DNA of 64,000 nucleotides from positions 1 to 64,000 of the forward strand of contig JACIXD010000009.1 in the NCBI GenBank assembly GCA_014360645.1, in the 5' to 3' direction. Positions 7,475-61,266 of the stretch are shown piece by piece (position 1 is the stretch's first letter; the number at the start of each line of letters is the position of its first letter). A program made the position numbers and the translations under genes. The stretch is from Actinomycetota bacterium. GTDB taxonomy: Bacteria > Actinomycetota > Geothermincolia > Geothermincolales > RBG-13-55-18. The notes under the pieces are model-generated. The model worked only from the letters and a program-made list of their open reading frames with translations, ran no database searches and was not told the origin of the DNA.

Positions 7475-10400
7475 ATGTCCTTGATGATTCCCGTTTCATG
7501 TTCCAACAGGCCGGGTTGCGCCGGTCGCGCTTCCAGGTTCGCCGCCGCCGCCGCGCTGCTGTCGCTGGCGCTGGTCACGGCGCAGTTTCCCGCCCGGGCT
7601 GAAAACGCCGGGGCCGCGGGGGCAGGATCTCCATCCACCGCTCTGGCGCCGCTACCGCCGGAGGCGTCCTACGGGGAGGCCCAGACCTGGTACCTGGCCG
7701 AGGGATACACCGGGGGCGAGTTCGATACCTGGGTGCTGGTGCAGAACCCGGGCGTCGAGGCCGCCCACGTCACCTTCGACTTCCAGCTCCCGCCGGGTTC
7801 GTCGGCGCCCTCCTTCTCCTTCGACCTTCCCGGACGCTCCCGCCAGTCCTTCCATCTGGACGGCTTCGAAGGCCTTTCGGACACCGACGTCTCCACCCGG
7901 GTGACCAGCAGCGTGCCGGTGATGGTGGAGAGGGCCATGTACTTCAGCTACAACGGCAAGACGGGCGGGCACGACTCCATCGGCGTGAAGTATCCTTCCA
8001 ATATATGGTATTTCGCTGAGGGTTATACCGGGGGCGAGTTCGACACCTGGGTGCTGGTGCAGAACCCGGGCGACGCCAACGCCCACGTCACCCTGGAGTT
8101 CCAGCTCCCGCCGGGGTCCTCGGCTCCCCCCTTCGAGTTCGACCTCCCCGCGGGCACCCGGCGCTCCATCCACCTGGACGAGCTGCCGGGGCTCTCCGAG
8201 ACCGACGTCTCCACCAAGGTGGTGGCCAACATCCCGGTGGTGGCGGAGCGCGCCGTTTACTTCGACTACTTCGGCAAGACGGGCGGGCACGACTCCATAG
8301 GGGTGGTCAGCCCGTCCGAGCGCTGGTTCCTGGCCGAAGGCTATACCGGGGGCGACTTCGACACCTGGGTGCTGGTGCAGAACCCGGGCGACGCCTCCGC
8401 CCATGTGAGGTTCGACTTCCAGCTCCCACCGGGTTCGTCGGCTCCTCCCTTCGAGTTCGACCTCCCCGCACGTTCCCGCCAGTCCTTCCACCTCGACGAC
8501 TTCGACGGGCTTTCCGCGACCGACGTCTCCACCATGGTCACCTCCAACCTGCCCGTGGTCGCCGAGCGCGCCATGTATTTCAACTACTTCGGCAAGACTG
8601 ACGGCCACGACTCCGTCGGCGTCGATTTCCCCTCCGACACCTGGTATCTGGCCGAGGGATACACCGGGGGAGACTTCGACACCTGGGTGCTGGTGCAGAA
8701 CCCGGGCGAGAAGACCAAGCACGTCATCCTGGACTTCCAGCTGCCGCCAGGTTCCTCCGCGCCCTCCATCGAGTTCGACCTCCCCGGCGGCACCCGGCAG
8801 TCAATCCACCTGGACGACCTGCCGGGGCTCTCCGACACCGACGTCTCCACCAAGGTCAGCGCGGACGGGCTGGTGGTGGCGGAGCGGGCCATGTATTTCA
8901 ACTACGGCGGCAAGGACGGCGGGCACTGCTCCGCGGGGGCCCTCTACGAGCCCCCCATCATCCCAGACACAACCAAGGTCCTGGGCGACGCCGAGCTGGG
9001 CCGTCTCGCCGGCGCCGCCAAGAGCGGCGACGGCAAGGAGCTGGTGCTGACCTTCAGCGCCAACGTGGGTGCGCTGCAGGGAATCGAGCCGGGGGACGTC
9101 ATCGTCGGCGGCATCACCGCCAACACCCCCTACGGCATCCTTCAGAAGGTGACCAAGGTGAATCGTGCCGGCGGCCAGGTGATACTCAACACCGTCTCGG
9201 CCTCCTTGGAGGAGGCGGTGTGGAGAGGACACCTCTACCAGCCCCTCGACCTGAGCGCGGCGCGCCTGGTGTCCACCAGGATCCTGGCCGAGGGGGTAGA
9301 GTTCGTGCCCGGCGGCGCGGGAGAAGGGGGCGATTTCCGTGACGCCGCCCACATGGAGCTCCCCTTCACCTACAACTTCAACAACGTGAAGCTGGGAACG
9401 GATCCCGACTACCTCCTCCTCAACGGCAAGGTGGGGCTGACCTTCAAGGCCGATTTCAACGTGGACATAGACGTGGGCTGGCCGTCCCTGGACGAACTCC
9501 TCGGCGGCGGCGTCCTGCCCGACGTGGAACTGAAGAGCGCGGACTTCGGCGTCACCGTCGAGGAGACGGCGGACATCCGGGGCTCCGCTTCCGTGACCAA
9601 GAACATCTCGTACGAGAAGGACATCGTGGAGCACGAGTTTACCCCCATCAACGTCCAGATAGGGCCCGTGCCGGTGATACTGGTGCCCTACGTCAACGTG
9701 CACGTGGGAGTGGACGGCACGGTCTCGGCGGGGATCTCCTTCGGCGCGATGCAGAAGGGGAGTGTCTATGCAGGGGTCGCCTACGACGGCTCGAAGTGGA
9801 CGCCCAAGACGGGCAAGGACTTCAGCTTCGAATGGACCCCGCCCAGCGGGAACATCAATGCCGACGTCAAGGTCTACGCCGGGCCGCAGTTCGGCATCAA
9901 GCTCTACGGCATATGCGGACCCTACCTCAACCTAGAGCCCTTCGTGCGCCTGGTCATCAACACCGCCACCCCGCCCCTGTGGAAGGTCTTTGTGGGCATC
10001 GAGGTGGACATCGGGGTGAAGGCGGGGATCGATCTCGAGTTCGAGGCCGATCTGGGCTGGTTGGGCACCTACGAGTGGAAGTGGTCCCTCGAGCTCTTCG
10101 ACGTGAAATGGGACGGAGCTCTCTCCTGGGAGATGCTGCTGGCCAACGCGGTGAAGATAGACTCGTTGTCGCCGGGCACGGGAGAAGCGGGAACGGAGGT
10201 GACCATCAAGGGCTCGGGGTTCGGAGACACGCGCGAGAACGACTCCTACGTGAAGTTCGGCTCCGTGGCGGCCACCGAGTACACCTCCTGGAATGCCGGC
10301 GAGATAAGATGTAGGGTGCCTGCCGGGGTATCAGGGACGGTGCAGGTCAAGGTGACCCATATCTTCCACCGGTGGGGTCCGGTCACCATCCAGGTGACCT

Positions 10401-11431: not shown

Positions 11432-13924
11432 GTGAAGGTCAATAAACGCCCTTTACTCTTTGTGCTGGTCCTGGCCGCGGCTCTCTTGATCCCCCCCTTA
11501 TCCTCCATCGGCCCCGCCCTGGCCCAGGGAGGCTGGAGCCTGGAGGCGACGGGGGGCTTGGGGAGCCCGGCGAACGTGGGCGCCGCTTCCTCGGCCGTCT
11601 ACAACTCCAAGCTTTACGTGGGAACGGAGAACTCCGCCACGGGGTTGCAGATATTCAGTTACGATGGCGAGAACTGGACGCAGGAGGTGGGGGGAGGTCC
11701 GGGTCATGCGGCCGGCGGCTTCGGTGACCCCAACAACCTGAGCGCCGCCTCCATGATCGTCTACCGCGGGCAGCTCTACGTGGGGACGTTCAACGGCACC
11801 ACCGGCTGCGAGATCTGGCGCCACGACGGCACCGCCTGGGAAGCGGTGGTAGGGGGCGGAGCGGCCGTTCCTTCCGGGTTCGGCAGCCCGGGTAACTTGA
11901 GCGCCAGCGCCATGGCCACCTACGGCCTCGACCTCTACGTGGGCACCTATTCCTGGGGCGGCTGCGAGGTGTGGGCCTTCGACGGCGCGAACTGGACCCA
12001 GACGGTGGGCGCCTCTCCCACCGCGCTCATAGGCCCGGGCTTCGGGACGGCGTGCGTGGTGATCGAATCCATGCAGGTCTTCGGAACCGGCCTCTATGCG
12101 GGCACCGGCAGCCCCGGCGGCTGCGAGGTGTGGGCCTTCGACGGTGCCGGGTGGACACCTCAGGTGAGCGCGGATCCTTCCGCTCCCCTGGGAGCGGGCT
12201 TCGGGGACGCCAACAACGCCGACGTCATGGACATGGCCGTCTACGAAGGCTCGCTCTACGCGGGGACGAGCAACTGGAACACCGGCTGCGAGGTGTGGGC
12301 CTTCGACGGCGCGAACTGGTCCCAGGCGGTGGGCGACCAACCCGGCCCGCACCCGCGATCCGGCTTCGGGTATGCCGGCAGCTTCATGGCCACGCAACTC
12401 GAGGTCTATGATTCCCGGTTGTATGTCGGGATACATAACGGCAGCGGATGCATGGTGGCCTATTACGACGGCTTCATCTGGATGCTCGAGGTGGGAGGAG
12501 GGGCGCCGGGCACCTACACGGCGAGAGGATTCGGAGATCCCAACAATATCTATATAGGGTGCGCCTCCATCTTCAACAACCGCCTCTTCCTCGGGACCTC
12601 CAACAACTCCACCGGCTGCGACCTCTTCGCCCTCAAGTCCTCCACCACCTGGTACCTGGCCGAGGGGGCGACGGCGGGGGGCTTCGAGACCTGGGTGCTG
12701 GTGCAGAACCCCAACGCGGTGGCGACCAATGTGACCCTTACCTTCCAGACGGAGAGTGGACCGGTGGCGGGGCCCACGGATGTCGTACCGGCCAACTCCC
12801 GCAGATCCTACCTCCTGAACAACTACGTCACCAGCTTCGACGTCTCCACCAAGGTTGCCGCGCACGTGGACGTAATCTGCGAACGCGCGGTGTACTGGAC
12901 CCCGCCCGGGTCCTCCGTGCGCCGGGTGGGCCACGACTCCATAGGGGTGGTCAACCCCGCCTCCACCTGGTACCTGCCCGAGGGCGTCACCAGAGGAGGC
13001 TGGGAGACCTGGGTGCTCATCCAGAACCCCAACCCCAACCCGGTAAACGTGGACGTGGTCTTCCAGACCGGCACCGGCGAGGTGCAGGGGCCCCAGCAGA
13101 CCCTTGCCGCCAACTCCCGTAAATCCTACAAGGTGGACGACTGGGTGGACACCTATGACGTCTCCACCCAGGTGACCTCGTACATGGGCGATGTGGTCTG
13201 CGAGCGCGCCGTCTATTACACCCCCGAGGGATACGCCACCCGGGAGGTGGGCCACGACTCCATCGGGGTGGTCAGCCCCTCCACCACCTGGTACCTGTCC
13301 GAGGGGGCCACGGCGGGGGGCTTCGAGACCTGGGTGCTGGTGCAGAACCCCAACCTCGACTTCGTGAACATCGACATGAAGTTCCAGACCGGCACGGGCC
13401 AGGTGCAGGGGCCGGTGGAATCCATCCCCGCCCGCTCCCGCAAGTCCTACAGGGTGGACGACTGGGTGGACACCTTCGACGTCTCCACCATGGTGACCTC
13501 GACGGGCGGGGCGGTGGTCTGCGAGCGGGCCATGTACGAATCCCCCGCCTCCCGCGGCGTCCGCCTGGTGGGCCACGACTCCATCGGGGCCACCGTGGGC
13601 GGCCGGGAATGGTACCTCCCCGAGGGGGCCACGGCCAGCGGCTTCGAGACCTGGGTGCTGGTGCAGAACCCCAACCCCCACCCCGTGGACATCGCCATCA
13701 CCTTCCAGACCGGTTCGGGCGAGATGCCCGGCCCGGCGGAGACCATCCCCGCGCGTTCCCGCCGTTCCTACGAGGTGAGCAGGTGGGCGGTCACCAACGA
13801 CGTCTCCACCAAGGTCACCTCCACCGCGGGTGGCTACATCATCTGCGAGCGGGCGGTGTATTGGCGGCCGTTCCCGGGAGCCGTCCGTTACCTGGGCACC
13901 GACTCCATCGGCTACGATCCTTGA
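11432..13924 (+). CDS. Secreted protein with N-terminal propeller-like repeats and four WYLAEG repeats
   Basis: The 830-residue product starts at GTG 11432, six bases after a strong GGAAGGAGG. The first residues are a clear signal peptide (KVNKRPLLFVLVLAAALLIP, cleavage near ALAQGG). Residues about 30-400 hold roughly 55-60-residue repeats with GFGDPNNLSA ... LYVGT-N-TGCEVWAFDGANW, which look like blades of a beta-propeller. From about 405 to the end there are four roughly 105-residue repeats: TWYLAEGATAGGFETWVLVQ, FQTG-G-V-GP, SRKSYKVDDWV, YDVST-VTS, CERAVYY, GHDSIGVV. The domain order is reversed relative to the gene at 7475. It lies between two copies of an intergenic palindromic repeat. 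Its role at the cell surface is unknown. Confidence 0.8.
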   Translation: MKVNKRPLLFVLVLAAALLIPPLSSIGPALAQGGWSLEATGGLGSPANVGAASSAVYNSKLYVGTENSATGLQIFSYDGENWTQEVGGGPGHAAGGFGDPNNLSAASMIVYRGQLYVGTFNGTTGCEIWRHDGTAWEAVVGGGAAVPSGFGSPGNLSASAMATYGLDLYVGTYSWGGCEVWAFDGANWTQTVGASPTALIGPGFGTACVVIESMQVFGTGLYAGTGSPGGCEVWAFDGAGWTPQVSADPSAPLGAGFGDANNADVMDMAVYEGSLYAGTSNWNTGCEVWAFDGANWSQAVGDQPGPHPRSGFGYAGSFMATQLEVYDSRLYVGIHNGSGCMVAYYDGFIWMLEVGGGAPGTYTARGFGDPNNIYIGCASIFNNRLFLGTSNNSTGCDLFALKSSTTWYLAEGATAGGFETWVLVQNPNAVATNVTLTFQTESGPVAGPTDVVPANSRRSYLLNNYVTSFDVSTKVAAHVDVICERAVYWTPPGSSVRRVGHDSIGVVNPASTWYLPEGVTRGGWETWVLIQNPNPNPVNVDVVFQTGTGEVQGPQQTLAANSRKSYKVDDWVDTYDVSTQVTSYMGDVVCERAVYYTPEGYATREVGHDSIGVVSPSTTWYLSEGATAGGFETWVLVQNPNLDFVNIDMKFQTGTGQVQGPVESIPARSRKSYRVDDWVDTFDVSTMVTSTGGAVVCERAMYESPASRGVRLVGHDSIGATVGGREWYLPEGATASGFETWVLVQNPNPHPVDIAITFQTGSGEMPGPAETIPARSRRSYEVSRWAVTNDVSTKVTSTAGGYIICERAVYWRPFPGAVRYLGTDSIGYDP

Positions 13925-26857: not shown

Positions 26858-27017
26858 CTCCATACCCCCTCGGTTCAAGACTGAAAAGCCGCTAATTCGC
26901 CGTGTGTCCCCTATTATAGCCCCTGGCCCGGATGGCCTAGCCAGATGTTTTACTCGCTTTTCCAAAGGTCGGCCGTGGCGGCTGTTTCCCGTCCAGACCC
27001 GCATCTCCGGCCATGAA

Positions 27018-27150
27018 GAAGCCACTCCAACATGAGGTCGGGTCGAGGGTCAGCCGTTCATGGCGCGCGGACGCGACACCACCGAGGATGAAAATCGCCC
27101 TTCGCCACCATGACGCTATACATGGTGCATTGAAAGCTATTTTCAGAGCA
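27018..27150. repeat. 133-bp tandem direct repeat, copy 1
   Basis: This copy begins GAAGCCACTCCAACATGAGG and ends TATTTTCAGAGCA. The second copy follows without a gap. The copies differ at only a handful of positions. Confidence 0.8.
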
Positions 27151-27283
27151 GAAGCCACTCCAACATGAGGTCGGGTCGAGGGTCAGCCGTTCATGTCGCG
27201 CGGACGCGACACCACCGAGGATGAAAATCGCCCTTCGGCACCATGACGCTATACATGGTGTATTGGAAGCTATTTTCAGGGCA
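27151..27283. repeat. 133-bp tandem direct repeat, copy 2
   Basis: This copy begins with the same GAAGCCACTCCAACATGAGG and ends TATTTTCAGGGCA. It contains the internal inverted sequence CGCGCGGACGCG. Function is unknown; it may be a duplicated structured element or remnant. Confidence 0.8.
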
Positions 27284-27545
27284 GTCCCCGGTATGCCCGG
27301 ATATCGCGCCCTCCCGGTGGGGACACACCCGTTCAGCCGCGTCCTCGCCCGCCTTCGGGACTGCCGGCGACCTCCGGCGGCATGTGGCAAGACCTCGGAT
27401 CCATGGCGAAACCCGCGTACGAGATCGGTACGGGCAGAAAGCTCTCGACCCTAATACCTGTCCTCCGTTTCTGGTAAAATGATCCCGGATTCCCGATCTT
27501 ATGGGGGGTCCCCGGCACAGAGGCGCGGCGGCGACGGGAGGGACC

Positions 27546-53679: not shown

Positions 53680-54582
53680 GTGGATTCCAGCAGCAGGGCA
53701 GATTACCTGCTAATCGCGGGCGCGGCGGTACTATGGGGATCGGTGGGGGTGTTCCTGCGCTGGGTGGATCTTCCAGGCAGGGAGTATTTCGTGGTCTTCA
53801 TGCGCTCCGTCATCAGCCTCTGCTTCCTCACCGCGGTGATCCTGGCGAGCGGGAAGCGGGAGCAGCTCCATCCCGGCAGGCATCCCCTCCTCCTCCTCGC
53901 CAGCGGCGCCCTCCTCACCTTCCACTGGGTGATCTTCCTGAAGGCGCTGAACAACCTGTCCATCGGCGACGCGGAGTTCATCACCTACCTGGCCCCCGTG
54001 TTCGTGGCCATCCTGGCCCCCCTGCTGTTGAGGGAAAGGCTGGAGGCCACCACCGTGCTGGCCCTGGCCCTCGCCGTGGGGGGGATGTTCCTCGTCGCCC
54101 TCACGGGCCAGGAGGAAGGCGCCGCCCTCAGCGGCCCCGGCATCGCCTACGCCCTCACCGCGGCGGCGAGCTACGCCTTCCTCCTCATCATCCTGAAGAA
54201 GCTGCGCCGGGACACCCCCTCTCTCACCATCACCTTCTACCAAACGGGGGTGAACGCCCTGCTCCTCCTGCCCTTCTGCGCCTTCCGGGATTTCCAGGTC
54301 ACCGCGGGCGGCTGGGTCTCCCTCATGGTGCTGGGGACGGTGCACACGGCGTTCGCCGGGCTGGTCTACGTGCACGCGGTCAAGAGGGTGAAGGCACAGC
54401 ACGTGGGGATCATCGCCTATCTCGAGCCTCTGAGCGCGGTGCTCTTCGGGCTCGCCTTCCTGGGTGAACGGCCGGGGTGGCAGGACCTGGCGGGGGGCGC
54501 GCTGATCATCGCCGCCGGCGCACTGGTCATGCACCGCGCCTGGTCCGGTAACGGCCCCGCCCCCGAGGGCCCTCAGGCATAG
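53680..54582 (+). CDS. EamA/DMT-family transporter
   Basis: The 300-residue integral membrane protein has ten predicted hydrophobic helices in two EamA repeats: YLLIAGAAVLWGSVGVFLRW at the start, FITYLAPVFVAILAPLLLRERL ending the first, IAYALTAAASYAFLLIILKK starting the second, and HVGIIAYLEPLSAVLFGLAFLGERP near the end. The family exports metabolites and amino acids. The start is GTG 53680 with AAGGAG eight bases upstream. Its last ten bases overlap the end of the convergent gene at 54573. The substrate cannot be inferred. Confidence 0.85.
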   Translation: MDSSSRADYLLIAGAAVLWGSVGVFLRWVDLPGREYFVVFMRSVISLCFLTAVILASGKREQLHPGRHPLLLLASGALLTFHWVIFLKALNNLSIGDAEFITYLAPVFVAILAPLLLRERLEATTVLALALAVGGMFLVALTGQEEGAALSGPGIAYALTAAASYAFLLIILKKLRRDTPSLTITFYQTGVNALLLLPFCAFRDFQVTAGGWVSLMVLGTVHTAFAGLVYVHAVKRVKAQHVGIIAYLEPLSAVLFGLAFLGERPGWQDLAGGALIIAAGALVMHRAWSGNGPAPEGPQA

Positions 54583-55700
54583 ATGGCCAGGTTCAGGTCT
54601 CCGTCCGGGAGCGCCTCCCACTGGTGCCGGGATGACTCGAGCCCCGCGAGCAGCTCGTAAAGGCCCTTGGCCATGCCCACCAGCATGTAGGGCATGCACG
54701 CGTTGCGGATGGAAAGCTCCAGCTTCCCCCTGCCGCCCTCCACGCGCGCCACATAACCCAGGCCGCGCAGGGCGGTGAGGGCGGGAAGGGAGGGCGCGAT
54801 GCGCGACACCGCCTCCCTGTCCACCCGGGACTTCACGTAGCGCCGCTGGGCCTCGATGGACGTCTCGAAGACCCGCGGCCCGAACTCCTCCTCCAGGTCC
54901 CCGAAAACGGCGTCGATGGCCTGCGAGCCCAGGACGGCCACCCGGCGCGAGGTATCGGCGGCGATGATCGTCCCCTTCCGGAGATCCCAGCGGTAGCGCG
55001 CCACGTCCTCGGGTACCCCGCATTCCGGACAGCGCTCGTAGGCGAGGTCGCCGGGCTTGAAGTCATACCTCCTGCGCCGCAGCTTGCCGCTCAGCTCGAG
55101 CTCGTGGGCTCCGGGCCGTACCTCCACCAGGTATTCGTCCTCGCCCGTCTCCCTGCTCTCCACGCGCATGTCCATGCCCTCGAAGGCCTCCACCGTGCCC
55201 AGCACGTCGGCCATCCACAGGGGGAGCGAGTAGGGGTGGCGCACCACGAAGCTGCGCCAGGGGTACTCGTAACCCCTCTCCCAGCCCTCGCCGAGGACGA
55301 TGTCTCCGTAACCGAAGACCTTCCCCATGTTGACCACCCTCTGGCTCAACTCCCTGCGCAGCCTGTGCAGGGCTTTCGCCATCACCTTCGTGAACGGCGA
55401 ACCGCCGCGAATGGGGTCGGCGTCGCCTATGAGGAGGGTGTTCCTCACCTCGAAAGGGAAGCTCCTCTCGATGAAGCGCCTGGTCTCCCTCCTGCGGCTC
55501 TCGATGACCATGGGCTCCACGGGCTTCCCGAGCATCTCCCGCATGCCCGCGAAGATGTTGTCGATGACGTTGGATTCGAAGAAGACCATGCGGTTGCGGG
55601 GGGAGTCCGCAAGGGTGATCACGCCGTTGTCTCCCCAGCGCAGTTCGCGCCCGATCAGCGTGGGCACCCCGCACCGCGCACAGAGCTCGATCTCCTCCAC
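54573..55700 (-). CDS. CxxC-containing family protein, member A
   Basis: The 375-residue protein was not assigned to a known family. It begins MEEIELCARCGVPTLIGREL and has a second similar segment in the middle, YERCPECGVPEDVARYRW, each followed about 20 residues later by a strand, an R-M/V-x-F/L-x-S turn, a helix with ID-x-x-F and an I-E-x-x-R-R motif. The protein therefore looks internally duplicated, with one C-x2-C per half. The C-terminal 50 residues (NACMPYMLVGMAKGLYELLA ... LPDGDLNLAIYA) recall the end of V4R-type ligand-binding domains, but only weakly. The GTG start at 55700 follows GGGAGGAGAG. It is the last of five tandem paralogues transcribed leftward. Function unknown. Confidence 0.7.
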   Translation of the reverse strand: MEEIELCARCGVPTLIGRELRWGDNGVITLADSPRNRMVFFESNVIDNIFAGMREMLGKPVEPMVIESRRRETRRFIERSFPFEVRNTLLIGDADPIRGGSPFTKVMAKALHRLRRELSQRVVNMGKVFGYGDIVLGEGWERGYEYPWRSFVVRHPYSLPLWMADVLGTVEAFEGMDMRVESRETGEDEYLVEVRPGAHELELSGKLRRRRYDFKPGDLAYERCPECGVPEDVARYRWDLRKGTIIAADTSRRVAVLGSQAIDAVFGDLEEEFGPRVFETSIEAQRRYVKSRVDREAVSRIAPSLPALTALRGLGYVARVEGGRGKLELSIRNACMPYMLVGMAKGLYELLAGLESSRHQWEALPDGDLNLAIYA

Positions 55701-55779
55701 GCTCTCCTCCCTATCCCTTGCCTCAAACTCCCCTCATGGTTCCCCCGGCCTGCGGAGCCCGGGGTGAGGAGCGGCGGCG

Positions 55780-56910
55780 TCAATCCACCCTCACCTCGAT
55801 GGAGAGGTCGCCGTCGTCGGCGAAATGGTATTCATATCTCGAGCTCTCCCTGTTGAGGGCCAGCTCGTAGATGGCCTGGGCCATGCCCACCATGAGCAGC
55901 GGCAGGCAGGCGTTCTCGATGGTGAGGGAGAGATGCTTTTCGTCCGCCTCGAAGCGGGTGACGTTTCCCATGCCCCGGAGCGCCGAGAGGCGGTTGAAGG
56001 TGGTCCTGCCCCTCCTCCAGTCACGCCGGCGCGCTCTTTCCTTCACGAACCTCCTCTCCGCCTCGATCACCGCGGCGGGGACCTCCTCCCCCAGCTCGGC
56101 CTGCAGGTCTTCCAGCACCACCTCCAGGGCCGAAGGCCCGTAGATGGCCATCCTCCACCCGTAATCGGGGTCGTTGATGATGCCCTGCTCGGGTTTCCAC
56201 TCGTAGCGCGCCAGCTCGGCCGGCAGGCCGCATCCCTCGCAGCGCTCAAAGACGATCTCCCCAGGCTTGAAGGAATAGCGCCTTCGCTTCAACCTCTCCT
56301 TCAGCTCCAGGGGATGCCCGGCGGGATAGGTCACGAAGAGATAGGTGTCTTCGTCGAGCCGCTCGTAGCGCACCCACTGGTCTATCCCTTCGACGGCCTC
56401 GTTGGATCCCAGGGCGTCCGCGGCCCAGAAGGGTACGGAATAGGGATTGCGCACCACGTTCGACCGCCAGGGGAAGGGATCTCCCATCTCCCAGGTGTCT
56501 CCGGGCCGGGAGTCCCCGTAGCCGTATATCCTGCCGATCTCTATGATCTCCCGGGTGATCGTCCTGGTGATCTCTCGCAGGACCTTCTCGCCGGCGGGGT
56601 CTCTTCCGGTTATCCCCTCCTTGTAGGCGTCCCGGGCGCTCGCGATCATCTCCCTCACCTCCGGGGGCAGGGAGCGCTGGATGTACTTCTTCACCTCGCG
56701 CCTGCGGCTCTCGATGACGATGTGCTCGATGGGCAGCCCGATGAGCTCCTCGATGCCGCGGAAGAGGTTGTCTATGACCCGCGACTCGTACAGGATCATG
56801 CGGTTGGCGGGAGACCTCTTGAGGGTGATGACCCCGTTGTTCCCCCATTCCAGCTCCCGGGAGATCATGAGGGGCACTCCGCACCGCGCACAACGCTCCA
56901 CGTCCGCCAT
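55780..56910 (-). CDS. CxxC-containing family protein, member B (copy 1)
   Basis: The 376-residue paralogue starts MADVERCARCGVPLMISREL at ATG 56910 with GGAGGTAGCC upstream. An upstream frame extension has no support. The middle CxxC is FERCEGCGLPAELARYEW, and the end is YHFADDGDLSIEVRVD. It has the same internal duplication as members A and C, with a distinctive SLPPEVREMIASARDAYKEG segment after the first half. It is about 80 bases upstream of member A. Its product is identical to that of the gene at 58566. No membrane segment or signal peptide is visible. Confidence 0.72.
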   Translation of the reverse strand: MADVERCARCGVPLMISRELEWGNNGVITLKRSPANRMILYESRVIDNLFRGIEELIGLPIEHIVIESRRREVKKYIQRSLPPEVREMIASARDAYKEGITGRDPAGEKVLREITRTITREIIEIGRIYGYGDSRPGDTWEMGDPFPWRSNVVRNPYSVPFWAADALGSNEAVEGIDQWVRYERLDEDTYLFVTYPAGHPLELKERLKRRRYSFKPGEIVFERCEGCGLPAELARYEWKPEQGIINDPDYGWRMAIYGPSALEVVLEDLQAELGEEVPAAVIEAERRFVKERARRRDWRRGRTTFNRLSALRGMGNVTRFEADEKHLSLTIENACLPLLMVGMAQAIYELALNRESSRYEYHFADDGDLSIEVRVD

Positions 56911-57355
56911 GGCTACCTCCATCGATCGCGATCTCTGCACTTGATATTTTCGCCTTGCGGCGCGGCGGACTTGAGCGCGGGGAAGGATCGGGCCCCGGGA
57001 CCCTTGTCCCACCCCGTGCCGGCGTGGCCCCGAGATGAGCGCCGCGGAAAGCGCAGGTACGCGGTCCTGGAAGATGGGGTTGGAAGGAGAAAGATATAGT
57101 GCGATATCCAGAATCTCCGTGCGGCGAGATCTCCCCGGGGAGATGGTGGTTTGCGGTCATCTGGGCGGACCGACGCCCGCCGCGCGGTGGGAAGAAGGAG
57201 GGGTCAGGCCTCAGGCCGGCGGCGTGAGTTCGCCGGAGTCGCCTGCCGCCGCGAGGAGAGGAGGAAGCGCTTTTCCGGACCCGGAGAGAGGGTTCGCTTG
57301 GGCACTCCTTTCTGCCTGCGCCGCGGGCAGCGCGGAAGGCCCTCCGCTCCCAAGC
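56911..57355. other. Spacer between tandem paralogues B and C
   Basis: 445 bases without a supported gene, duplicated exactly at 59697-60141. It has a less GC-rich patch before gene B (TGATATTTTCG at about 56942) and a GATAT-N6-ATATC inverted repeat at 57092-57107. These may carry a promoter for B, but no clear -35/-10 pair was found. Confidence 0.4.
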
Positions 57356-58486
57356 CTATGCTATCCGAACCGCGATGGAGAGGTCGCCGTCGTCCGCGAG
57401 CTCCCACTCGCAGGTGGAGCTCTCCACGCGGTAGGCCATCTCCACCAGGGCCTGAACCGTCCCCACCATGGGGAGGTGCAGACACGCGTTCTGGACCAGC
57501 ATCTCCAGGCCGTGCCGGTCTCCCTCGAAGCGCGCGAGGTACCCCAGGCCGCGCACGGCGATCATCTGCTGGAAGGTGAGACCGTCGAGGTTCCAGTTCT
57601 CCGTGTTCCAGGCGGAACGGATATAGCGCCGCGTGGCCTCGATCACCGTCTCGGGTATGGCCTCCCCCAACTCGTACTCCAGGTCGTCGAAAACCGCGTC
57701 GGCGGAAAAGGGGCCGAAGATGGCCGTCCTCCTCCCCGTATCGGGGTCGGTGATGGTGCCGGCCTCGACGTCCCACCTCTGCCTGGCCACCGCCAGGGGG
57801 ATTCCGCACTGCGGGCAGCGCTTATAATCCACATCGCCCGGCTTGAAGTCATAGCGCCTGCGCTTAAGGCGTTCCCTCAGCTCCAGCGCGTGTTCTCCCG
57901 GAAAGACCTCCGTGCGGTAGGTGTCCTCGCCCGTCTTCTCGTACCTCACCTGCATCTCGATGCCCTCGAAGGCCTCCACCGATCCCAGGTTGTCCGCGGC
58001 GAGGAAGAGGATGGAGTAGGGGTTCCGCACCTTCTGCACCCGCCAGGGGAAATCCGCCCCCTCCTCCCAGAGCTCGCTCATCATCTGCTCGCCGTAACCG
58101 TAGTTCTTCGCGATGTCCATGATGTTCCGGGTGATGACCCTCATGGTGGCCAGGAGGGTCTCCCGCTCCTCGGGGGTCATGCGCGCCATGCGCTCCTCCA
58201 AGCCCGAATCCGATCCGTCGATGATCCCGCGCACCTCCGGGGGAAAGGCCCTCTCGATGTAGCGCCGGGTCTCGCGGCTCCTGCTCTCTATGACCATGCG
58301 CTCGACGGGCACGCCGATGAGCTCCTCGATGCCCCTGATGACGCGGTCGATGGTCTCGGACTCGAAAAAGACCATGCGGTTGCGGGGGGAGTCCGCAAGG
58401 GTGATCACGCCGTTGTCTCCCCAGCGCAGTTCGCGCCCGATCAGCGTGGGCACCCCGCACCGCGCACAGAGCTCGATCTCCTCCAC
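57356..58486 (-). CDS. CxxC-containing family protein, chimeric member (A N-terminus, C-prime body)
   Basis: The 376-residue product begins with the same 43 residues as member A (MEEIELCARCGVPTLIGREL ... RNRMVFFES) and then switches to the sequence of the gene at 60142 (ETIDRVIRGIEELIGVPVER ... DDGDLSIAVRIA), which it follows to the end. The switch coincides with the 20-bp junction of the tandem duplication, so the gene is a fusion formed by that event. The frame is intact and the GTG start with its GGGAGGAGAG is inherited from A. Both CxxC sites (CARC, CPQC) are kept. Function unknown, as for the other members. Confidence 0.75.
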   Translation of the reverse strand: MEEIELCARCGVPTLIGRELRWGDNGVITLADSPRNRMVFFESETIDRVIRGIEELIGVPVERMVIESRSRETRRYIERAFPPEVRGIIDGSDSGLEERMARMTPEERETLLATMRVITRNIMDIAKNYGYGEQMMSELWEEGADFPWRVQKVRNPYSILFLAADNLGSVEAFEGIEMQVRYEKTGEDTYRTEVFPGEHALELRERLKRRRYDFKPGDVDYKRCPQCGIPLAVARQRWDVEAGTITDPDTGRRTAIFGPFSADAVFDDLEYELGEAIPETVIEATRRYIRSAWNTENWNLDGLTFQQMIAVRGLGYLARFEGDRHGLEMLVQNACLHLPMVGTVQALVEMAYRVESSTCEWELADDGDLSIAVRIA

Positions 58487-58565
58487 GCTCTCCTCCCTAT
58501 CCCTTGCCTCAAACTCCCCTCATGGTTCCCCCGGCCTGCGGAGCCCGGGGTGAGGAGCGGCGGCG

Positions 58566-59696
58566 TCAATCCACCCTCACCTCGATGGAGAGGTCGCCGT
58601 CGTCGGCGAAATGGTATTCATATCTCGAGCTCTCCCTGTTGAGGGCCAGCTCGTAGATGGCCTGGGCCATGCCCACCATGAGCAGCGGCAGGCAGGCGTT
58701 CTCGATGGTGAGGGAGAGATGCTTTTCGTCCGCCTCGAAGCGGGTGACGTTTCCCATGCCCCGGAGCGCCGAGAGGCGGTTGAAGGTGGTCCTGCCCCTC
58801 CTCCAGTCACGCCGGCGCGCTCTTTCCTTCACGAACCTCCTCTCCGCCTCGATCACCGCGGCGGGGACCTCCTCCCCCAGCTCGGCCTGCAGGTCTTCCA
58901 GCACCACCTCCAGGGCCGAAGGCCCGTAGATGGCCATCCTCCACCCGTAATCGGGGTCGTTGATGATGCCCTGCTCGGGTTTCCACTCGTAGCGCGCCAG
59001 CTCGGCCGGCAGGCCGCATCCCTCGCAGCGCTCAAAGACGATCTCCCCAGGCTTGAAGGAATAGCGCCTTCGCTTCAACCTCTCCTTCAGCTCCAGGGGA
59101 TGCCCGGCGGGATAGGTCACGAAGAGATAGGTGTCTTCGTCGAGCCGCTCGTAGCGCACCCACTGGTCTATCCCTTCGACGGCCTCGTTGGATCCCAGGG
59201 CGTCCGCGGCCCAGAAGGGTACGGAATAGGGATTGCGCACCACGTTCGACCGCCAGGGGAAGGGATCTCCCATCTCCCAGGTGTCTCCGGGCCGGGAGTC
59301 CCCGTAGCCGTATATCCTGCCGATCTCTATGATCTCCCGGGTGATCGTCCTGGTGATCTCTCGCAGGACCTTCTCGCCGGCGGGGTCTCTTCCGGTTATC
59401 CCCTCCTTGTAGGCGTCCCGGGCGCTCGCGATCATCTCCCTCACCTCCGGGGGCAGGGAGCGCTGGATGTACTTCTTCACCTCGCGCCTGCGGCTCTCGA
59501 TGACGATGTGCTCGATGGGCAGCCCGATGAGCTCCTCGATGCCGCGGAAGAGGTTGTCTATGACCCGCGACTCGTACAGGATCATGCGGTTGGCGGGAGA
59601 CCTCTTGAGGGTGATGACCCCGTTGTTCCCCCATTCCAGCTCCCGGGAGATCATGAGGGGCACTCCGCACCGCGCACAACGCTCCACGTCCGCCAT
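58566..59696 (-). CDS. CxxC-containing family protein, member B (copy 2)
   Basis: This gene is the duplicate of the gene at 55780, with the same ATG, ribosome site and 376-residue product; I saw no differing residue. It is the copy that was next to gene C-prime before duplication, or its descendant. The two identical copies with a single synonymous difference in the whole unit imply a very recent event and doubled dosage of this member. Confidence 0.72.
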   Translation of the reverse strand: MADVERCARCGVPLMISRELEWGNNGVITLKRSPANRMILYESRVIDNLFRGIEELIGLPIEHIVIESRRREVKKYIQRSLPPEVREMIASARDAYKEGITGRDPAGEKVLREITRTITREIIEIGRIYGYGDSRPGDTWEMGDPFPWRSNVVRNPYSVPFWAADALGSNEAVEGIDQWVRYERLDEDTYLFVTYPAGHPLELKERLKRRRYSFKPGEIVFERCEGCGLPAELARYEWKPEQGIINDPDYGWRMAIYGPSALEVVLEDLQAELGEEVPAAVIEAERRFVKERARRRDWRRGRTTFNRLSALRGMGNVTRFEADEKHLSLTIENACLPLLMVGMAQAIYELALNRESSRYEYHFADDGDLSIEVRVD

Positions 59697-60141
59697 GGCT
59701 ACCTCCATCGATCGCGATCTCTGCACTTGATATTTTCGCCTTGCGGCGCGGCGGACTTGAGCGCGGGGAAGGATCGGGCCCCGGGACCCTTGTCCCACCC
59801 CGTGCCGGCGTGGCCCCGAGATGAGCGCCGCGGAAAGCGCAGGTACGCGGTCCTGGAAGATGGGGTTGGAAGGAGAAAGATATAGTGCGATATCCAGAAT
59901 CTCCGTGCGGCGAGATCTCCCCGGGGAGATGGTGGTTTGCGGTCATCTGGGCGGACCGACGCCCGCCGCGCGGTGGGAAGAAGGAGGGGTCAGGCCTCAG
60001 GCCGGCGGCGTGAGTTCGCCGGAGTCGCCTGCCGCCGCGAGGAGAGGAGGAAGCGCTTTTCCGGACCCGGAGAGAGGGTTCGCTTGGGCACTCCTTTCTG
60101 CCTGCGCCGCGGGCAGCGCGGAAGGCCCTCCGCTCCCAAGC
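59697..60141. other. Spacer between tandem paralogues B-prime and C-prime
   Basis: Exact copy of the 56911-57355 spacer with the same AT-rich patch and GATAT-N6-ATATC inverted repeat (59878-59893). No gene is supported. Confidence 0.4.
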
Positions 60142-61266
60142 CTATGCTATCCGAACCGCGATGGAGAGGTCGCCGTCGTCCGCGAGCTCCCACTCGCAGG
60201 TGGAGCTCTCCACGCGGTAGGCCATCTCCACCAGGGCCTGAACCGTCCCCACCATGGGGAGGTGCAGACACGCGTTCTGGACCAGCATCTCCAGGCCGTG
60301 CCGGTCTCCCTCGAAGCGCGCGAGGTACCCCAGGCCGCGCACGGCGATCATCTGCTGGAAGGTGAGACCGTCGAGGTTCCAGTTCTCCGTGTTCCAGGCG
60401 GAACGGATATAGCGCCGCGTGGCCTCGATCACCGTCTCGGGTATGGCCTCCCCCAACTCGTACTCCAGGTCGTCGAAAACCGCGTCGGCGGAAAAGGGGC
60501 CGAAGATGGCCGTCCTCCTCCCCGTATCGGGGTCGGTGATGGTGCCGGCCTCGACGTCCCACCTCTGCCTGGCCACCGCCAGGGGGATTCCGCACTGCGG
60601 GCAGCGCTTATAATCCACATCGCCCGGCTTGAAGTCATAGCGCCTGCGCTTAAGGCGTTCCCTCAGCTCCAGCGCGTGTTCTCCCGGAAAGACCTCCGTG
60701 CGGTAGGTGTCCTCGCCCGTCTTCTCGTACCTCACCTGCATCTCGATGCCCTCGAAGGCCTCCACCGATCCCAGGTTGTCCGCGGCGAGGAAGAGGATGG
60801 AGTAGGGGTTCCGCACCTTCTGCACCCGCCAGGGGAAATCCGCCCCCTCCTCCCAGAGCTCGCTCATCATCTGCTCGCCGTAACCGTAGTTCTTCGCGAT
60901 GTCCATGATGTTCCGGGTGATGACCCTCATGGTGGCCAGGAGGGTCTCCCGCTCCTCGGGGGTCATGCGCGCCATGCGCTCCTCCAAGCCCGAATCCGAT
61001 CCGTCGATGATCCCGCGCACCTCCGGGGGAAAGGCCCTCTCGATGTAGCGCCGGGTCTCGCGGCTCCTGCTCTCTATGACCATGCGCTCGACGGGCACGC
61101 CAATGAGCTCCTCGATGCCCCTGATGACGCGGTCGATGGTCTCGGACTCGAAAAAGACCATGCGGTTGCGGGGAGAAGCGGCAAGGGAGATGACGCCGTT
61201 GCTCTCCCAGTTGAGTTCCCTGCTCACCATGAGGGGAACCACGCATTCGGCACAGGTCTCTATCAT
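60142..61266 (-). CDS. CxxC-containing family protein, member C-prime (parental form)
   Basis: The 374-residue protein starts at ATG 61266 after GGAGGAGGG, reading MIETCAECVVPLMVSRELNW. An upstream extension of this frame to 61716 has no start signal and no family sequence. From ETIDRVIRG on it is identical to the chimeric gene at 57356; only the first 43 residues differ. It keeps one C-x2-C (CAEC) at the start and CPQC in the middle. It is the first gene of the leftward five-gene array and probably carries the array's promoter in the 500 bases upstream. Function unknown. Confidence 0.73.
   Translation of the reverse strand: MIETCAECVVPLMVSRELNWESNGVISLAASPRNRMVFFESETIDRVIRGIEELIGVPVERMVIESRSRETRRYIERAFPPEVRGIIDGSDSGLEERMARMTPEERETLLATMRVITRNIMDIAKNYGYGEQMMSELWEEGADFPWRVQKVRNPYSILFLAADNLGSVEAFEGIEMQVRYEKTGEDTYRTEVFPGEHALELRERLKRRRYDFKPGDVDYKRCPQCGIPLAVARQRWDVEAGTITDPDTGRRTAIFGPFSADAVFDDLEYELGEAIPETVIEATRRYIRSAWNTENWNLDGLTFQQMIAVRGLGYLARFEGDRHGLEMLVQNACLHLPMVGTVQALVEMAYRVESSTCEWELADDGDLSIAVRIA

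Follow-up and report, generated by a model that had tools for sequence, protein, structure and literature searches.

In the esaG/tipC arrays of T7SS immunity genes, tandem paralogues recombine at conserved blocks, whereby genes are duplicated or lost and mosaics arise; long reads have confirmed such expansions and deletions (Garrett et al., PMC9484751). For the csa1 lipoprotein genes of Staphylococcus aureus a "gene accordion" was described, in which the copy number of a tandem array shifts through homologous segments (PMC7360770). The array reported here resembles the first system in that exchange between tandem paralogues duplicates a gene and makes a mosaic, but it belongs to an unrelated protein family and phylum and represents one event, read from assembled sequence. 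With csa1 it shares the change in copy number of a tandem paralogue array via homologous segments; csa1, however, varies between isolates and was followed experimentally, whereas the present array is seen in one genome. The process is already known from other bacteria, and this array is a further case. We consider it probable (about 0.86) that the locus carries a real and recent tandem duplication, which arose from an array C'-B-A by exchange between A and C' and yielded an in-frame chimeric gene C.

The source genome (G000), from an uncultured actinobacterium, is a 3.38-Mb assembly in 34 contigs with a completeness of 98%. Self-comparison of the window, the whole 64-kb stretch of DNA that was analysed, revealed one near-identical tandem pair (Table 1). 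The two copies lie head-to-tail with a length of 2,786 bp each, and an ungapped comparison at an offset of 2786 gave a single mismatch, corresponding to 99.96% identity. Exact identity extends from 55582 to 58387 with the sole exception of G at 58316 versus A at 61102, and ends sharply: mismatches set in at 55581 at the low end and at 58388/61174 at the high end. Since the same genes are only about 77–90% identical between species, 99.96% over 2.8 kb is not a matter of chance. On the minus strand the differing codons read ATC and ATT, both encoding Ile. The boundaries are marked by the 20-mer AAGACCATGCGGTTGCGGGG, which occurs at exactly three sites in the window (55582, 58368 and 61154). Thus the sequence-only reading, which had proposed two tandem copies of this length differing at one synonymous base and sharing one sequence at their boundaries, was right on all three points, coordinates included.

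Table 1. Genes, tandem copies and exchange-point sequences of the array (positions in the window).
Feature	Position	Strand	Remarks
C'	60142..61266	-	374 aa; parental, first of array; ORF; orthologues in both sister species
B2	58566..59708	-	380 aa; identical duplicate of B1
C (chimeric)	57356..58486	-	376 aa; A codons 1–33 (up to 40), then C'
B1	55780..56922	-	380 aa
A	54573..55700	-	375 aa; parental, last of array; orthologue in G002
Tandem copy 1	55582..58367		2,786 bp; 5' part and upstream of A, B1, spacer, C body
Tandem copy 2	58368..61153		2,786 bp; 5' part and upstream of C, B2, spacer, C' body
20-bp identity in A	55582..55601		AAGACCATGCGGTTGCGGGG; parental site
20-bp identity in C	58368..58387		Recombinant junction; low side C' body, high side A 5' part
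20-bp identity in C'	61154..61173		Parental site
Sole difference, copy in C	58316		G; minus-strand ATC; ancestral state
Sole difference, copy in C'	61102		A; minus-strand ATT; derived state

Other repeats are present elsewhere in the window. At 7685–8936 and 12633–13830 there are diverged direct repeats (period about 320 bp, identity 72–82%), which are apparently related to each other, and a 135-bp tandem unit with 96% identity is found at 27017–27284.

All genes of the array lie on the minus strand and are read in the order C', B2, C, B1, A. Judged by the appearance of their sequences, the flanking genes are a divergent acyl-CoA-dehydrogenase-like gene and a convergent gene for an EamA-type transporter. 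Promoter and terminator scans added no information. The composition of C can be followed closely. Upstream it keeps the 79-bp spacer of A including the ribosome-binding-like sequence GGGAGGAG; within the first 120 nt its identity profile passes from 1.00 to A to 0.99–1.00 to C', and the 13 residues in which C and C' differ are all located among the first 32. At the DNA level 33 codons are certainly derived from A, the shared 20-mer lies in codons 34–40, and sequence of the C' type sets in with the third base of codon 40 (TTT) and with codon 42 (GAG) and continues from there. The sequence-only reading had assigned the first 43 residues of C to A. This holds for the protein identity, which reaches residue 43 because A and C' both have FES there, but not for the DNA, which allows 33 certain and at most 40 codons. 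Its further statements that gene B was duplicated and that the reading frame is intact agree with the identity of B1 and B2 and with the uninterrupted in-frame ORF of C. Gene C is a "new gene" in the sense of a new intact coding sequence, the product of which may be expressed and fold.

The nearest relatives of the source genome are two metagenome-assembled genomes, Ch49 and Candidatus Solincola daggyaiensis. In Ch49 the locus consists of C', B and a relic of A, out of frame and stripped of most of its length. In this relic (L043:6141-6305) the first few codons are joined out of frame to the last 53 codons. Ca. Solincola daggyaiensis shows C'-A without B, so that the array differs in gene content between sister species; within this one genus, each of three species has its own content. 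G006 and G010, two genomes from a different genus, both retain C-B-A, and G010 has an additional C. The tandem C-type paralogues of G010 (L050:9247-11947) match exactly over one run of 47 bp against a background identity of 76%, which hints at exchange between them. In a protein tree A, B and C' each cluster with the corresponding orthologues; the C body is placed on C' at zero distance. Based on the orders in the relatives and on this grouping, the ancestral order is read as C'-B-A. A search of the relatives for one- and two-copy versions returned single-copy orders, in accordance with the predicted one-copy ancestor (order C'-B-A in G006 and G010, single copies in Ch49 and Ca. Solincola daggyaiensis), and the chimera junction was absent from all 28 related genomes, leaving the source genome as the sole carrier among the 29 searched.

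The three tandem paralogues C'-B-A on the minus strand are the proposed starting point of the event. In the course of replication or later, A would pair through its 5' part with the corresponding part of C' on the sister chromosome at the 20-bp identity, and exchange at this site would give C'-B-[A/C']-B-A. As the outcome B would be doubled, and C would start with the upstream region and the first 33–40 codons of A and continue as C'. That the partners were sister chromosomes is our inference. Of the exact matches that A and C' share, the longest measures 22 bp and the next 20 bp; the latter is the exchange point. It lies within a region of about 60–70% identity and in register in both genes, in codons 34–40 of A and 32–38 of C'; the paralogues are about 60% identical. 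The sequence-only reading had placed this sequence in a conserved coding segment of A and C', and the unequal recombination between paralogues proposed there is supported by the order in the relatives, the exchange point and the unique junction. The length of the identity does, however, raise the question of mechanism. RecA-type recombination usually needs longer identity, and 20 bp is near or below this length. Template switching of replication at the same 20 bp, which would give the same product without homologous recombination, is for this reason a serious alternative with a somewhat less than even chance. Exact identity is confined to the 20 bp, and the adjoining 100-bp stretches contain 70 and 60 matches between A and C', as this mechanism would permit; the in-register position, at an exact match that only one other exceeds in length, is, on the other hand, what a homology-driven exchange would produce.

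A second question concerns the number of copies. Several contigs of the source genome end inside insertion-sequence copies; both ends of contig C16 (L091, L092), for example, lie in insertion-sequence-like copies that form a 1,099-bp inverted pair with 98.6% identity. Contig ends in repeats suggest a typical short-read assembly, and an assembly of this kind infers rather than reads the copy number of a 2.8-kb repeat. The single difference is located 72 bp from the first flank base that distinguishes the copies and 52 bp from the junction, so that a single short read can link this base to each junction. Since the base in the junction copy differs from that in C', the junction was not simply copied from C' by the software. 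We regard the junction between C' body and A 5' part as very probably real; that there are exactly two copies is less sure, since the assembler probably deduced this number. A mixture of cells that differ in copy number (one, two or more), in the manner of a gene accordion, or excised circles could have been drawn as two copies around a real junction. Arrays made by tandem duplication are not stable and can grow or shrink again, as in csa1 of S. aureus (PMC7360770), excision between the two sites gives the same junction, and the copy number is not readable from the assembly. Such a mixed state nevertheless appears rather unlikely, as the array is situated inside a 158-kb contig and its single substitution has been assigned to one of the copies, in keeping with a duplicated state that predominates.

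Compared with the sister species, dS amounts to about 0.45–0.83 for C' and B and to 0.40 for A, versus one difference in 2,786 bp between the copies. The duplication appears to be recent, with the reservation that conversion may have homogenised the copies and so hide a greater age. On the coding strand the differing site carries C in the chimera, in the C' genes of both sister species and in A and B, and T in C' of the source genome; the B gene of Ch49 carries T at this site independently. As both sister species share the base of the chimera, the derived base sits in C', and by this comparison the first substitution after the duplication is placed in the parental C'. Local gene conversion from A was considered as another origin of the single difference, because C has the base of A. 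A mutation in C' is simpler, since the 18 differences between A and C from the site to the junction all remain of the C' type and the sister species share the base. An old duplication held identical by gene conversion is very improbable: exchange between tandem paralogues does occur in the family, as the C-type pair of G010 indicates, but the duplication is present in neither sister species, and conversion would have had to act on coding and spacer DNA alike and to reach exactly to the boundaries. The words used by assemblers are as a rule 21 or longer, so that sequences should not be joined through 20 shared bases alone. An assembly artefact, in which C' body and A 5' part of a single-copy C'-B-A genome were joined via the shared 20-bp word, would suit an assembly that resembles a short-read MAG with contigs ending in repeats, but it is likewise very improbable, as this overlap is shorter than the usual word and the distinct, ancestral base 52 bp from the junction points to the existence of two versions of the C body.

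The proteins A, B, C and C' matched no Pfam, NCBIfam or PHROGs family above the cut-off. A recurring match to zf-Mss51 remained below the cut-off and covered the second CxxC segment only, and rubrerythrin, the sole sequence-profile match in the PDB (E 0.002), was taken as a chance hit via the zinc motif. Each protein consists of two homologous halves (hhalign probability 99.7%), and each half starts with CxxCGxP and a Trp-Gly-Ile hairpin. About 24 members of this unnamed two-repeat CxxC family, dispersed as well as in tandem, are encoded in the source genome (e.g., at C8:15280-17866, C9:78999-80051 and C4:221428-222480), a number derived from 34 matched stretches of which several are halves of one gene. 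Each of the 25 genomes sampled from the class has the family; the 271 others of the phylum sample (Actinomycetota) yielded no member.

The structure model of the full-length protein was poor (pLDDT 55), and one of the C-terminal repeat (pLDDT 75) was used in its place. With Foldseek this predicted repeat matched BcsD, the phenol sensors MopR and PoxR, H-NOX and TRAPP subunits (E 5e-4 to 0.03, TM 0.41–0.49), with the XylR_N-V4R phenol sensors and the H-NOX/TRAPP/BcsD group as the best structural matches. BcsD, MopR, PoxR, H-NOX and TRAPP subunits share one fold. A comparison of the C-terminal repeat with V4R proteins of the same phylum gave an hhalign probability of 65%, a weak value from a single comparison, and the Pfam gathering score of V4R (PF02830) was reached by none of 71 family members; true V4R proteins are encoded separately in the source genome. 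In contrast to V4R proteins, those of the family are without a C-terminal Cys motif, and they differ from V4R sensors in having two repeats with N-terminal CxxC knuckles and no attached output domain. A V4R/H-NOX/TRAPP-like fold is tentatively suggested by the model and, given TM-scores below 0.5 and the weak V4R profile match, is a lead rather than a membership. That the proteins bind ligands or act as sensors is a guess, if a conceivable one. Directly after the first CxxC, 62 of 71 aligned members have Gly, and only C' of the source genome has Val; the chimera regains Gly from A (CxxCGVP). Both the Val in C' and the regained Gly may be coincidence. It seems improbable that the exchange was favoured for giving the C' body a working first metal knuckle and that the array is a set of ligand-binding modules with N-terminal parts swapped by recombination.

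The array is a clean case, in which not only the parents and the product but also the exchange point, the gene order before the event and the direction of the first subsequent substitution are readable. It comes from a lineage without a cultured model and points towards an unnamed, class-wide multigene family with a fast turnover of its arrays.
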